NCBI GenBank assembly: GCA_013361335.1
Contig: JABFYH010000048.1
Span: 1 to 34,215 of the forward strand
DNA: 34,215 nucleotides
Direction: 5' to 3'
Source: Gemmatimonadaceae bacterium
GTDB taxonomy: Bacteria; Gemmatimonadota; Gemmatimonadetes; Gemmatimonadales; Gemmatimonadaceae
The notes beneath the pieces were generated by a model. That model did not search any database, was not told where the DNA came from, and was given only the letters and a program-made list of their open reading frames with translations. The position numbers and the translations under genes were made by a program. This document shows positions 12,224 through 34,042 of the stretch, piece after piece. Numbering within the stretch: position 1 is the first letter of the stretch; each line of letters starts with the position of its first letter.

Positions 12224-12841
12224 ATGCTGCAGTCCTTTCTGCAGTGGTTGGCGGCGTGGCCGCCCGCGGTGCTCTATCTCGTGCTCGCCCTCTTCGCGGC
12301 GCTCGAGAACGTCTTCCCGCCACTGCCCACCGATACCGTCGTCGCCTTCGGCACCTGGCTCGCCGCGCGCGGCGAGGGCAGTGCCCTCGGCGCCTTCCTG
12401 GGCACGTGGGTGGGGAACGTGGCCGGCGCGGCGGCGATGTACGAGGTCGGGCGCCGGCATGGCACGACCTGGATGCGCCGCAAGTTCCCCCGCCTCGCCG
12501 ACGAGCAGGGCGAGGCTCGGCTGCGCACGCTCTACTCGCGTTACGGGCTGGCGGCCCTCGTCCTGAGCCGGTTCATTCCCGGTGTGCGCGCCCTCGTGCC
12601 CCCATTCGCCGGCGCCCTGCGGGTGCCGGCCCTTTCCGCCATCGCGGCCATGGCGCTCGCATCGGCGGTCTGGTACGGCCTGATCGCCTATCTCGCCTGG
12701 CGCGCGGGATCGAACTGGGATGCCGTGACGCGGATGATCGCCCGCTCGGGGCGGATCGTCACCGTCTCGGCCGTCGCCGTCGCCCTCCTCGCCGCGCTCG
12801 TCTGGCTCCTCCATCAGCGGCGGGAGCGCGCGCGCTCGTGA
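12224..12841 (+). CDS. DedA family membrane protein
   Basis: The protein has 205 residues and about four to five hydrophobic segments (near residues 14-30, 52-72, 110-125, 133-160 and 175-197). It has the DedA/VTT (SNARE-associated, PF09335) signatures: LFAALENVFPPLPTDTVVAFG, LGTWVGNVAGAAAMYEVGRRHG and the amphipathic SRFIPGVRALVPPFAG. DedA proteins act in membrane lipid translocation; several recycle undecaprenyl phosphate or phosphatidylethanolamine. Which lipid applies here is unknown. The start is 4 bases after ispF and the stop overlaps the GTG of xerD. Confidence 0.88.
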   Translation: MLQSFLQWLAAWPPAVLYLVLALFAALENVFPPLPTDTVVAFGTWLAARGEGSALGAFLGTWVGNVAGAAAMYEVGRRHGTTWMRRKFPRLADEQGEARLRTLYSRYGLAALVLSRFIPGVRALVPPFAGALRVPALSAIAAMALASAVWYGLIAYLAWRAGSNWDAVTRMIARSGRIVTVSAVAVALLAALVWLLHQRRERARS

Positions 12842-13749
12842 CCGACGTCGAGCGTCGGAGCCGCAGCTTTCTGCTCGCGCGCTTCACGGATTACGTCGCG
12901 CTCGAGCAGGGGTTGTCACCGCGCACCCAGGAGGCCTACCAGCGCGATCTCGTCCGCTTCGTGGAGTATGCCGACGCGCGCGGTGCAAAGGCGCCGCCGG
13001 ACATCACCGCGCGCCTGCTGCGGGAGTACGTCTATCACCTTAAGGACCTCGGGCTCTCGCCGGCCTCGATTCGCCGGAACGTCTCGGCGGTGCGGACGTA
13101 CTTCCGCTTCCTCACCGGCGACGGCATCGTCGTCCGCGACCCGAGCGAGCGCCTGGAGACCCCGAAGCGGTGGCGCACCCTCCCCGAAGTGCTCTCGGTG
13201 GACGAGGTGCAGCGGCTTCTCGCCTCGCCGACGCTCGACGACGCGCTGGTCTTCCGCGATCGCGCGCTGCTGGAGCTGGCGTACGGCGCGGGGCTGCGGG
13301 TGTCGGAGTGGATCAGCCTCGGCGTACGCGACCTGCTGCTCGAGGACGGCCTCGTTCGCGTGTTCGGGAAGGGGAGCAAGGAGCGCCTGGTCCCGATCGG
13401 CCGGTCGGCGATCGGCGCGGCGGCGATCTATCTCCGCGAGCTCCGGCCTCGGCTCGAGAAGGGCGCCGGAAAGGGTATCCTCTTCCTGAACGCCCGCGGC
13501 ACGCCGCTCACGCGCATGGGCGCGTGGAAGATCCTCCGCGGCCACGTGGAGCGCGCCGGGATCGCCAAGCACGTCTCCCCGCACACCCTTCGCCACTCCT
13601 TCGCCACGCATCTCCTCGAAGGGGGCGCGGACCTCCGGGCTGTCCAGGAGATGCTCGGCCACGTCGACATCGCGACGACCCAGATCTACACTCACGTCGA
13701 TCGGGAGTATCTCCGGAAGGTGCATCGGAGCTTTCATCCCCGCGGCTAG
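12838..13749 (+). CDS. xerD: Tyrosine recombinase XerD-like
   Basis: This is a site-specific recombinase of the XerC/XerD type that resolves chromosome dimers at dif. The protein has 303 residues. The N-terminal SAM-like core-binding domain covers about 10-95 and the catalytic domain about 115-300. Active-site residues Arg154, Lys178, His249, Arg252, His275 and nucleophile Tyr284 are all present, offset by 5-6 from E. coli XerD. The start is GTG at 12838, overlapping the DedA stop (GTGA). XerD is preferred over XerC from overall pattern only. A dif-like site lies about 19 kb downstream, at 32994-33021. Confidence 0.92.
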   Translation: MTDVERRSRSFLLARFTDYVALEQGLSPRTQEAYQRDLVRFVEYADARGAKAPPDITARLLREYVYHLKDLGLSPASIRRNVSAVRTYFRFLTGDGIVVRDPSERLETPKRWRTLPEVLSVDEVQRLLASPTLDDALVFRDRALLELAYGAGLRVSEWISLGVRDLLLEDGLVRVFGKGSKERLVPIGRSAIGAAAIYLRELRPRLEKGAGKGILFLNARGTPLTRMGAWKILRGHVERAGIAKHVSPHTLRHSFATHLLEGGADLRAVQEMLGHVDIATTQIYTHVDREYLRKVHRSFHPRG

Positions 13750-31953: not shown

Positions 31954-32781
31954 TTGCTCCCCACCGGACGCACCTTCTACAAGATGAGCGGGTCGGGCAA
32001 CGACTTCGTCATGGTCGACGCCATGCGCGAGCCCCCCGGTCCGCTCGCGGAGTCCCGGGTCATCCAGGAGGTCTGTGCGCGGGCGACCGGGGTCGGGGCC
32101 GATGGGATCGTCTTCCTCGAGCCGGCGAGTCGAGGGAGCGGGGCGGCATACCGGATGACCTACCTCAACAGCGACGGCTCCCGTGCCGACCTGTGCGGAA
32201 ATGCATCGCTATGCTCGGCCCGCCTCGCGACGGAGCTCGGCGTAGCGAGCTCGGCCGAATTTCGCGTCGAGACGGACGCCGGAATCCTCGGCGCGCGGAT
32301 CCTGCCGACCGGGCCCGAGGTCGACCTGCGGCCCGTGACCGACGTTCGGCGCACCCTGCCATTTCGGCTCGTCCAGGGCGAGCAGTGGATGGGGTACGCG
32401 GTGGCCGGGGTGCCGCACCTCGTCGTCCGGGTCGACGACGTGGCGACGGTGCCGGTGGTCGAGCGCGGCCGGCCGCTGCGTCATGAAGCGTCGCTACCCG
32501 GCGGCGCCAACGTGAACTTCGTCTCCCGGGACGCGGCCGGCGGGTGGCGGATCCGGACCTATGAGCGCGGGGTCGAGGGCGAGACGCTGGCCTGTGGAAC
32601 GGGATCGGTCGCCACGGCGATCCTGCTGCGGGAAGCCGGCGAGGTCGAGGACCGAGTCGCCCTCGCGACGCGGTCGGGGCGGACGCTGACGGTCCGGCTC
32701 ACGAAGGCCGACGGTGGCTGGCAGCCCTCGCTGAGCGGCGAGGCTCGGCTGGTCTTCGAGGGCCGGTTCGGCGAGATCTGA
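31954..32781 (+). CDS. dapF: Diaminopimelate epimerase
   Basis: DapF interconverts LL- and meso-diaminopimelate for lysine and peptidoglycan. The protein has 275 residues, the usual length. The N-terminus has FYKMSGSGNDFVMVD. The two catalytic cysteines are Cys81 (RADLCGNASLC) and Cys214 (TLACGTGSVAT). The first motif differs from the common CGNGxRC by Ala and Leu at two places, with the Gly-Asn kept. The start is TTG at 31954 with GAGG at 31945-31948; a later ATG at 31984 would remove the conserved start. The gene is 40 bases after the glycosyltransferase. Confidence 0.94.
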   Translation: MLPTGRTFYKMSGSGNDFVMVDAMREPPGPLAESRVIQEVCARATGVGADGIVFLEPASRGSGAAYRMTYLNSDGSRADLCGNASLCSARLATELGVASSAEFRVETDAGILGARILPTGPEVDLRPVTDVRRTLPFRLVQGEQWMGYAVAGVPHLVVRVDDVATVPVVERGRPLRHEASLPGGANVNFVSRDAAGGWRIRTYERGVEGETLACGTGSVATAILLREAGEVEDRVALATRSGRTLTVRLTKADGGWQPSLSGEARLVFEGRFGEI

Positions 32782-32955: not shown

Positions 32956-32988
32956 GTGGAGAATCAAGTTCTCCACATTTCTCCACGT
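32956..32988. repeat. Three copies of TTCTCCACNT beside the dif-like site
   Basis: One inverted copy has its core at 32956-32963 and two tandem direct copies lie at 32969-32978 and 32979-32988, exactly 10 bases apart. The first two form an 8-bp perfect stem with a 5-base loop, followed by ATTT. The array ends 5 bases before the dif-like site. The layout resembles binding sites for a protein on one face of the helix, or a weak terminator for dapF. Confidence 0.6.
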
Positions 32989-32993
32989 TCGTA

Positions 32994-33021
32994 AGTTTAC
33001 ATAATACATCTTATACGTACC
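32994..33021 (-). other. dif: Candidate chromosomal dif site (XerC/XerD recombination site)
   Basis: Read on the minus strand, this 28-base AT-rich segment has an 11-6-11 layout: arm GGTACGTATAA (33021-33011), centre GATGTA, arm TTATGTAAACT (33004-32994). The first arm matches the E. coli XerC arm at 9 of 11 positions. The second matches the E. coli XerD arm at 9 of 11 and the B. subtilis right arm, as I recall it, at 11 of 11. It is non-coding, stands out from the GC-rich surroundings, lies where gene orientation switches, and xerD is in the same window. Confidence 0.82.
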
Positions 33022-33252: not shown

Positions 33253-33930
33253 TCAGCCCTTCGCCGGGCTTGCCACCAGCTCGCCCAACCGCACCCGAGC
33301 CTCCGCCGCCAGCGCCGGGCTCTCCTGGTTCGCCGCCAGACCCTCCCACACCCGCCGAGCCTCGGCGTGCTTCCCGGCCGCCATGTAGGCGTGACCGGCC
33401 TTCGCCAGCAGGAAAGCCTTCTCGTTCGGCATCGCCGTCAGCCCCGCTGCCCGCTCATACTCGGCTGCCGCATCGGCAGGCTTGTCGAGCTGGGAATACG
33501 CGTCCCCCAACAGCCCCCGCACGGCCGACGCGTTCGGCCCGGATGACAGCTTGTCGGCCAATCCCTTCAGGTAGGTCACCGCCCCCTGATTGTCTCCCTT
33601 CTCGAGCTTGAGCTGCGCCAGCAGCATCCCAGCCTCGGCGCCGGCCGGCGTCCCGGAGTACCGCTCCGCCACCTTGCCGAGATCCGACTCGGCGAGCTGG
33701 ACATTGGGGTTCCCCGGCTGCAGCGACTGCTTCGCCAACAACAGCTGCTTGTCGGCGTTCTGCAGCTTCCGCGTCTTCGCCGTCTGGTAGTACCAGGCGC
33801 CGGCGATCGCGACGAGCACCACGACCCCGGCCACCGTCACCAGCTTGGAGTTGACGTGAAACCAGTCCATGAAGCTCTCGGCTTTCGGCTGGCGCGCGGG
33901 GGCCACAGCCCCGGTATCAGGAGTCGTCAT
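33253..33930 (-). CDS. Membrane-anchored tetratricopeptide repeat protein (YfgM/TPR_21-like)
   Basis: The protein has 225 residues. A short cytoplasmic N-terminus with ESFMDWFHVNSK (19-29) precedes one transmembrane helix (about 30-48). A helical TPR region follows (about 55-218), with repeats such as AGMLLAQLKLEKGDNQGAVTYLKGL, VRGLLGDAYSQLDKPADAAAEYERA and AKAGHAYMAAGKHAEARRVWEGL. The layout is that of YfgM-type proteins, which associate with SecYEG and periplasmic chaperones in E. coli; the exact role here is unknown. The start is the ATG at 33930, because a longer frame would run into the tRNA. No Shine-Dalgarno sequence is visible, and a TAACTT 8 bases upstream suggests a possible leaderless start. 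Confidence 0.82.
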   Translation of the reverse strand: MTTPDTGAVAPARQPKAESFMDWFHVNSKLVTVAGVVVLVAIAGAWYYQTAKTRKLQNADKQLLLAKQSLQPGNPNVQLAESDLGKVAERYSGTPAGAEAGMLLAQLKLEKGDNQGAVTYLKGLADKLSSGPNASAVRGLLGDAYSQLDKPADAAAEYERAAGLTAMPNEKAFLLAKAGHAYMAAGKHAEARRVWEGLAANQESPALAAEARVRLGELVASPAKG

Positions 33931-33952
33931 AGGTTTACAAGTTATTGAATGA

Positions 33953-33966
33953 CCGGCGGGCGCCGG
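33953..33966 (-). terminator. Hairpin between tRNA-Arg and the TPR gene
   Basis: CCGGC (33953-33957) and GCCGG (33962-33966) form a 5-bp GC stem with a 4-base loop directly downstream of the tRNA on the minus strand. The following TCATT is a poor T-tract. It may mark the tRNA transcript end or a processing point. Confidence 0.3.
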
Positions 33967-33968
33967 CA

Positions 33969-34042
33969 TGCCCCTGGGGTGACTCGAACACCCGGCCAAC
34001 GGTTTAGGAAACCGCTGCTCTATCCACCTGAGCTACAGGGGC
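33969..34042 (-). tRNA. tRNA-Arg (anticodon CCT)
   Basis: The 74-base cloverleaf reads on the minus strand. The acceptor stem GCCCCTG/CAGGGGC is perfect, the D-arm has GCTC/GAGC, and the anticodon stem GCGGT/ACCGT encloses loop TTCCTAA with anticodon CCT, decoding AGG. The T-arm is GGGTG-TTCGAGT-CACCC and the discriminator is A. CCA is not encoded. The gene lies 38 bases upstream of the TPR gene on the same strand. Confidence 0.97.

Follow-up and report, generated by a model that had tools for sequence, protein, structure and literature searches.

In this study, we provide evidence that a 28 bp segment (32994-33021) is the chromosomal dif of a Gemmatimonadota bacterium, and that a conserved, initiator-box-like element lies beside it; we give this joint reading a probability of about 0.88, a figure that does not extend to binding by DnaA. 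The window, i.e. the whole stretch of DNA analysed, is 34,215 nucleotides long and is one whole contig (G000:C136) of its assembly. Among named records, the closest to its DapF come from Gemmatimonadetes metagenome assemblies, and on this basis it is placed in Gemmatimonadota. An earlier note on this DNA had proposed a dif-like Xer recombination site at this position, and with it a window at the replication terminus; the box element (32969-32987) and xerD are additions to that finding. Judged from its sequence, the site is a dif, a known kind of site, and dif in Gemmatimonadetes has already been predicted in print, the box element at dif being the unexpected part. A chromosomal dif is generally regarded as working with XerC, XerD and FtsK, and is not known to require an additional DNA element.

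Identification of a dif site in the window

Read on the minus strand, 32994-33021 is GGTACGTATAA-GATGTA-TTATGTAAACT (on the plus strand AGTTTACATAA TACATC TTATACGTACC), and the inner arm ends are ATAA and TTAT, as in the dif architecture. The 11-6-11 layout claimed in the earlier note is thus confirmed from the sequence, and the likenesses it saw between the arms and those of Bacillus subtilis and Escherichia coli agree with the known dif sequences of these species. A dif profile allowing at most three mismatches gave a single match in the window, against 0.01 expected from 100 shuffles. At no more than two mismatches the same segment was the sole match in the own assembly (3.75 Mb, 84% complete, in 230 contigs, which bounds its standing as the single best match genome-wide), and the pattern read backwards had no match there. 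The features of the window are collected in the table.

Table. Positions of the dif site, the adjacent boxes and the genes discussed, in window coordinates
Feature	Position	Strand	Basis
dif site, 28 bp (11-6-11)	32994..33021	minus	Profile matches in window, assembly and phylum
XerC-type arm GGTACGTATAA	33011..33021	minus	Arm assigned by analogy with known dif sites
Central region GATGTA	33005..33010	minus	Variable among relatives
XerD-type arm TTATGTAAACT	32994..33004	minus	Sequence and column scores in relatives
Outer box TTCTCCACA, 16 bases from dif	32969..32977	+	At least 7 of 8 letters in 64/69 loci
Inner box TTCTCCACG, 6 bases from dif, 10 bp repeat of outer box	32979..32987	+	Weaker: 25/69 loci
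GTGGAGAA, inverted partial box copy	32956..32963	+	Possible hairpin with 32970-32977; not conserved
xerD, 303 aa, GTG start (start chosen by hand)	12838..13749	+	TIGR02225, 349.6 bits (cut-off 329.6)
dapF (diaminopimelate epimerase), reads towards dif	31954..32781	+	PF01678, 127.7 bits
TPR protein gene (TPR_21), facing dif from the opposite flank	33253..33999	minus	PF09976, 46.1 bits

Distribution and conservation of dif in the phylum

Two profiles were used among the relatives, whose families are labelled f1 (the own family) to f11: a strict one with both arms fixed and at most three mismatches, and a loose one with at most two mismatches. The strict profile matched 26 of 60 genomes (own included), once each, with an empty control when read backwards; it matched eight of ten same-genus genomes, leaving two without a match, and none of 24 genomes from two other families of the order, where the arms differ. 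With the loose profile, 275 of the 298 phylum genomes gave a match and 15 a backward-read match; by the table count, exactly one match occurs in 251 of them, more than one in 24 and none in 23. A further set of 35 genomes had been picked for a prior loose-profile match, so that its 35/35 matches are no evidence.

The double matches of four assemblies (G190, G193, G196 and G200) sit near contig ends, and a pair of dif sites around an integrated element was rejected for them on that ground. The G190 pair overlaps by 122 bases, and the pairs of the other three, which lack an exact end overlap and differ by substitutions, look for that reason like strain variants; we regard all four as assemblies with a contig end or strain variants near dif. 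A Gemmatimonadota-type dif copy was also seen at L317:10570-10597, on a 16.6 kb IMG/VR contig, possibly from a phage using host Xer.

Among the same-family loci, column information averages 1.65 bits per column in the core, and 0.20 and 0.37 in the 60-base flanks (25 of 26 loci, L010 being dropped as too near a contig end). Conserved bases between diverging flanks are what the earlier note had proposed to look for, and this holds for these loci except at the box element beside the XerD arm.

The dapF-TPR context described in the same note is right as well. Of 69 loci (described below), 68 have dapF ahead of the site and in the same orientation, 63 have the TPR gene converging from the other flank, and 62 have both genes so placed. 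For 30 loci from other orders, no dapF was detected in the 1.5 kb flanks of dif, and 11 have a TPR gene converging on dif.

Terminus position and Xer machinery

In relatives (G030, G003 and G077, weakly G024) the site lies roughly opposite dnaA and near the GC-skew switch, and in G030, G024 and G003 KOPS converge on it. The dnaA-to-dif distance, as a fraction of the circle, is 0.416 in G030, 0.481 in G024, 0.450 in G077 and 0.479 in G102. For G030 and G024, 40 and 20 stretches of 20 kb, respectively, were sampled. In G030, which is one contig of 4,636,964 bases, 16 of the 18 stretches ahead of dif have positive GC skew and 17 of the 21 beyond it have negative skew. The value changes from +0.076 in the 20 kb ending at 1,930,000 to -0.011 in those starting at 1,940,001, and dif, at 1,930,285, lies between these two stretches; the stretch from base 1, beside dnaA, has negative skew. 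G024 follows the same pattern weakly. In G077 the maximum of the cumulative skew over a 20 kb stretch falls about 146 bases from dif, and in the same-genus G003, over 800 kb, it falls 15 kb away; the peak at 26 bases in G102 says little, as that 20 kb stretch ends 0.9 kb past dif. The earlier note had proposed looking for a skew extremum at the site, and this check holds in the relatives; the window itself, where skew averages -0.017 to the left of the site (the wrong sign) and -0.18 over 1.2 kb to the right, is at 34 kb too short to decide.

The KOPS motif GGGNAGGG is distributed between leading and lagging strands as 79:22 in G030, 26:4 in G024 and 68:15 in G003, ranking by strand skew 4th of 83,280, 9th of 52,418 and 45th of 84,152 one-N octamers, respectively. 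Its polarity switches at dif in G003 (Fisher p = 8e-6). KOPS are few in the window (4:2), which is too short for polarity.

XerC, XerD and FtsK-gamma are all encoded in the own assembly. XerC, on G000:C214, scores 332.0 bits, 3 under its own cut-off, and 287.7 with the XerD model; FtsK_gamma is on G000:C4, and was present in all six genomes checked. Within the window, xerD lies about 19 kb from dif. The best phage-integrase match lies 17-21 kb from dif in six of six relatives (G003, G024, G030, G077, G102 and G103). In eight of 12 genomes from other orders the top XerD match lies 21-46 kb from dif; in G099 it is 256 kb away, in G180 it is on the contig that carries dif but about 3 Mb off, and in G082 and G124 it is on a different contig. 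In all, 15 of 19 genomes (own, 6 relatives and 8 of 12 from other orders) have xerD, or the best integrase match, at 17-46 kb from dif. In the genome set of Kono et al. 2011 (PMC3025954), xerC is described as mostly near dif and xerD as near the origin, and the linkage of xerD and dif seen here differs from that arrangement. A third recombinase of the assembly (G000:C89:9061-9660, L138) is an integron integrase (TIGR02249, 398.9 bits).

The reading of the segment as dif, and of its surroundings as the terminus, is supported by uniqueness, the phylum-wide match, position, KOPS polarity and the presence of XerC, XerD and FtsK-gamma.

A conserved box element beside the XerD arm

The column scores of the loci revealed a second conserved patch beside the XerD arm, and the printed flanks gave TTNTCCACA. 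The element comprises a well-kept outer 9-mer of this form on the XerD-arm side of dif, starting 24-25 bases from it, and often a looser second one in the same orientation, 10 bp nearer to dif. It was scored in 69 loci, namely 26 from f1 (L001-L026), 30 from f2 (L107-L136) and 13 named-record loci found via DapF; the last were classed by arm sequence as 11 f1 (L047 perhaps f2) and two f2 (L049 and L062), so that 37 loci are taken as f1 and 32 as f2. These 13 come from 26 Gemmatimonadota DapF loci (L027-L050, L062 and L068), of which L034, L040, L042 and L068 gave no dif, seven were left out as repeats with identical flanks (L027, L029, L032, L038, L043, L046 and L050), and L044 and L048, both with the outer box, were left out though not identical to others.

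With each locus aligned at the better of two registers, 64 of 69 match the outer box at 7 or more of its 8 specified letters (mean 7.5), while seven shifted anchors given the same treatment reached that score in 0 of 67-69 loci each, with means of 2.2 to 2.7 letters. By source, the box is present in 22/26 loci assigned to f1, 30/30 assigned to f2 (the first of a longer list rather than a random draw, so that 30/30 overstates the rate) and 12/13 classed by arm sequence; some of the five misses (L016, L018, L020, L023 and L039) carry a related 9-mer one or ten bases off. The inner copy is looser, 25 of 69 loci reaching the same score. An alignment-free search gave exact TTNTCCACA within the 60 bases next to the XerD arm in 56/69 loci and on the other side in 0/69; of 4674 control 60-mers taken from these loci, 10 contain it. 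These control occurrences all belong to f2 loci (L107-L136 and related; 10/1705), at sites more than 100 bases from dif, and none to the 2969 control 60-mers of f1.

The least biased rate for the element comes from the exact composite TCCAC-N18/19-TTNACATAA-N6-TTATNCG, which was found in 132 of 288 genomes of the order, its backward-read control being empty. Among the other 156 are assemblies that are incomplete, genomes with variant arms or boxes and perhaps some that truly lack the element; entire genera have no exact composite, e.g. 0/30 in g22, two flanks of which (L012 and L235) carry TTTCCCACA as the outer box. In 800 kb of G003, exact TTNTCCACA occurs at 8 sites, and the only pair within 30 bp is the pair at dif. 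These sequence comparisons show, in a statistical sense, that the element exists and is tied to dif.

The element follows dif and not dapF. Throughout f1 the box-to-dif distance is kept while dapF-to-dif varies from 28 to 459 bases, and in G025, where dapF ends about 2.2 kb off, the box is still beside dif. In f4 and f6, which belong to other orders with other neighbours, the outer box is at the same register in 6 of 9 loci, e.g. as TTATCCACA and TTTTCCACA. It was found in 0 of 21 loci of f5, f7, f8, f9 and f10, and at the same place in 0 of 17 readable loci of other phyla, and these two results rule out the box as a general feature of dif. For the other phyla, 34 of 40 genomes gave some match, with a backward-read control about as rich, and 17 of 30 loci taken from them were readable as dif-like; in one locus from another phylum (L329), TTATCCAC starts 31 bases from the arm. 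In three of 15 f5 loci (L294, L298 and L299), TGTGGAAAA, the reverse complement of TTTTCCACA, lies about 10 bases from dif on the XerC-arm side. The box was also considered as a KOPS and rejected, its G-rich strand reading away from dif, the reverse of KOPS.

Resemblance of the boxes to DnaA boxes

The TTNTCCACA class is about 58-fold enriched at dnaA: 58 sites were counted in 33 dnaA loci (112 kb, 0.52 per kb) versus 18 across chromosome samples totalling 2.0 Mb (0.009 per kb). The DnaA of the own assembly has a normal helix-turn-helix domain IV (PF08299, 93.6 bits). The two groups of sites differ at the third base, which at dnaA is T in 33, A in 20, G in 3 and C in 2 of the 58 sites, and in the outer box at dif is C in 39, G in 17, T in 8 and A in 5 of the 69 loci, so that A or T is found in 53/58 versus 13/69 (the count omits a 34th dnaA locus, L146, which has T 1 and C 2). 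Of the inner copies, 48 of 69 carry A or T at this base, as do all six outer boxes of f4 and f6; in G024, TTCTCCACA occurs twice near dnaA.

The R-box consensus is given as TTWTNCACA, with A or T at the third base (PMC4585315). Both boxes of the window have C there and do not match it, thus we call them DnaA-box-like only. They are perhaps weak DnaA boxes and perhaps sites of another protein. Binding of the element by DnaA is plausible, and that DnaA is the actual binder has, in our estimate, a little less than an even chance.

A DnaA-related protein with two AAA+ domains was tried as the binder and rejected, the three copies scanned having no PF08299 DNA-binding domain. This protein, with two tandem Bac_DnaA AAA+ domains, is encoded at G000:C150:5222-6787 (L148), G030:C1:1693244-1694866 (L149) and G003:C13:514251-515816 (L147), and its matches lie about 205-293 kb from dif in G030, G003, G077, G102 and G103.

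Discussion

The site shares with dif of E. coli and B. subtilis the 11-6-11 layout, the ATAA-N6-TTAT core, a position roughly opposite the origin and the XerC/XerD/FtsK-gamma machinery, and with E. coli also the polarity of KOPS GGGNAGGG; it differs from both in the TTNTCCACA boxes beside the XerD arm. A dif was predicted in the one Gemmatimonadetes genome (1/1) of Table 1 of Kono et al. 2011 (PMC3025954), which is the same kind of site; the main text of that paper uses none of the words DnaA, flanking or accessory. Searches by name found no paper on Gemmatimonas dif or Gemmatimonadota DnaA boxes, and missed Kono et al. 2011 in this way, which writes Gemmatimonadetes. Likewise, no description of DnaA boxes beside dif was found in the literature searched, which excluded most subscription papers and so does not establish absence.

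Accessory DNA beside a Xer core is known from the plasmid sites cer and psi (with ArgR/PepA and ArcA/PepA, respectively), which resemble the present arrangement if the putative protein binding here is real; the accessory DNA of cer is described as about 180 bp long, binding ArgR and PepA (PMC5357621). Unlike cer and psi, the element reported here has two 9-mers of other sequence within 25 bases of the core, and is on a chromosome. DnaA boxes at oriC, datA, DARS1 and DARS2 are likewise TTNTCCACA-type 9-mers at fixed spacing, but the present boxes are at dif, number one or two, which is few compared with datA or DARS, and mostly have C or G as the third base.

From established Xer biology, FtsK guided by KOPS would travel to dif, its gamma domain would activate XerD there, and strand exchange by XerC and XerD between two dif copies would convert a chromosome dimer to monomers. 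We read the box element as a putative docking site for an accessory protein of this dif, for which DnaA or a protein of DnaA-type specificity is the likeliest candidate. Bound beside XerD, such a protein would link the resolution of dimers, or the handling of the terminus, to the state of replication initiation. FtsK-gamma activates XerD in E. coli (PMC5357621), thus the position of the box against the XerD arm suggests a gate or scaffold at the step of XerD activation. A stronger version, in which the initiator DnaA sits beside dif in one large lineage and couples the end of the chromosome cycle to its starter, appears rather unlikely to us at present; such coupling might run through gating of XerD activation, or through loading or resetting of DnaA as the terminus is copied, and the steps so coupled would be dimer resolution, FtsK arrival and terminus segregation.

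An ordinary dif with a box bound by a protein other than DnaA, for example a terminus organiser of the phylum in a MatP-like role, is a serious contender that falls somewhat short of probable. It would account for the C or G at the third base at dif as against A or T at dnaA, a difference seen also within the own assembly, and direct repeats phased at 10 bp would suit any cooperative binder. However, the remaining letters of the 9-mer are those of a DnaA box, of a class strongly enriched at dnaA, and the A or T of most inner copies and of all six f4/f6 boxes, together with the TTCTCCACA copies near dnaA in G024, also argue for DnaA. An organiser, moreover, would be expected at many places, yet exact sites are rare elsewhere in G003.

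The other alternatives concern what the box or the 28 bases are doing at this locus. The box might be an operator or terminator of dapF or the TPR gene that is beside dif by chance, and it is true that both genes flank the site in nearly all of the 69 loci and that the inverted GTGGAGAA gives a possible hairpin in the window. We consider this improbable: the genes converge, with no promoter of either expected between them, the distance from box to dif is fixed while that from dapF to dif varies, the register is kept in f4/f6 loci where dapF was not detected, and no locus was seen in which dif and dapF are apart and the box is beside dapF. A promoter or operator for either gene was rejected on account of the convergence and of the box following dif, and a hairpin terminator on account of the rarity of the exact inverted GTGGAGAA, which is present in only 3/37 f1, 1/36 f2 and 1/30 other printed loci. 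It is more improbable still that the 28 bases are the Xer attachment site of a mobile element or the end of a decayed prophage. Integrating elements are known to use dif-like sites, and the IMG/VR contig carries a close copy; against this, the site is single in the assembly, has a fixed gene context in the order and lies near the skew switch in relatives, where no second, better conserved site was found, and of 28 reading frames in the window compared with Pfam only xerD matched an integrase family. A phage using this dif was also considered and rejected; the IMG/VR contig, the one hit, has terminase-like (7.5e-7) and scaffold-like (0.00095) matches and no box beside its dif copy.

The reading preferred here, a chromosomal dif accompanied by a conserved box element, has two consequences. 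The phylum-wide dif profile offers a terminus marker for fragmented Gemmatimonadota assemblies, and a conserved, initiator-box-like accessory element at a chromosomal dif would make a link between initiation and dimer resolution directly testable in these bacteria.
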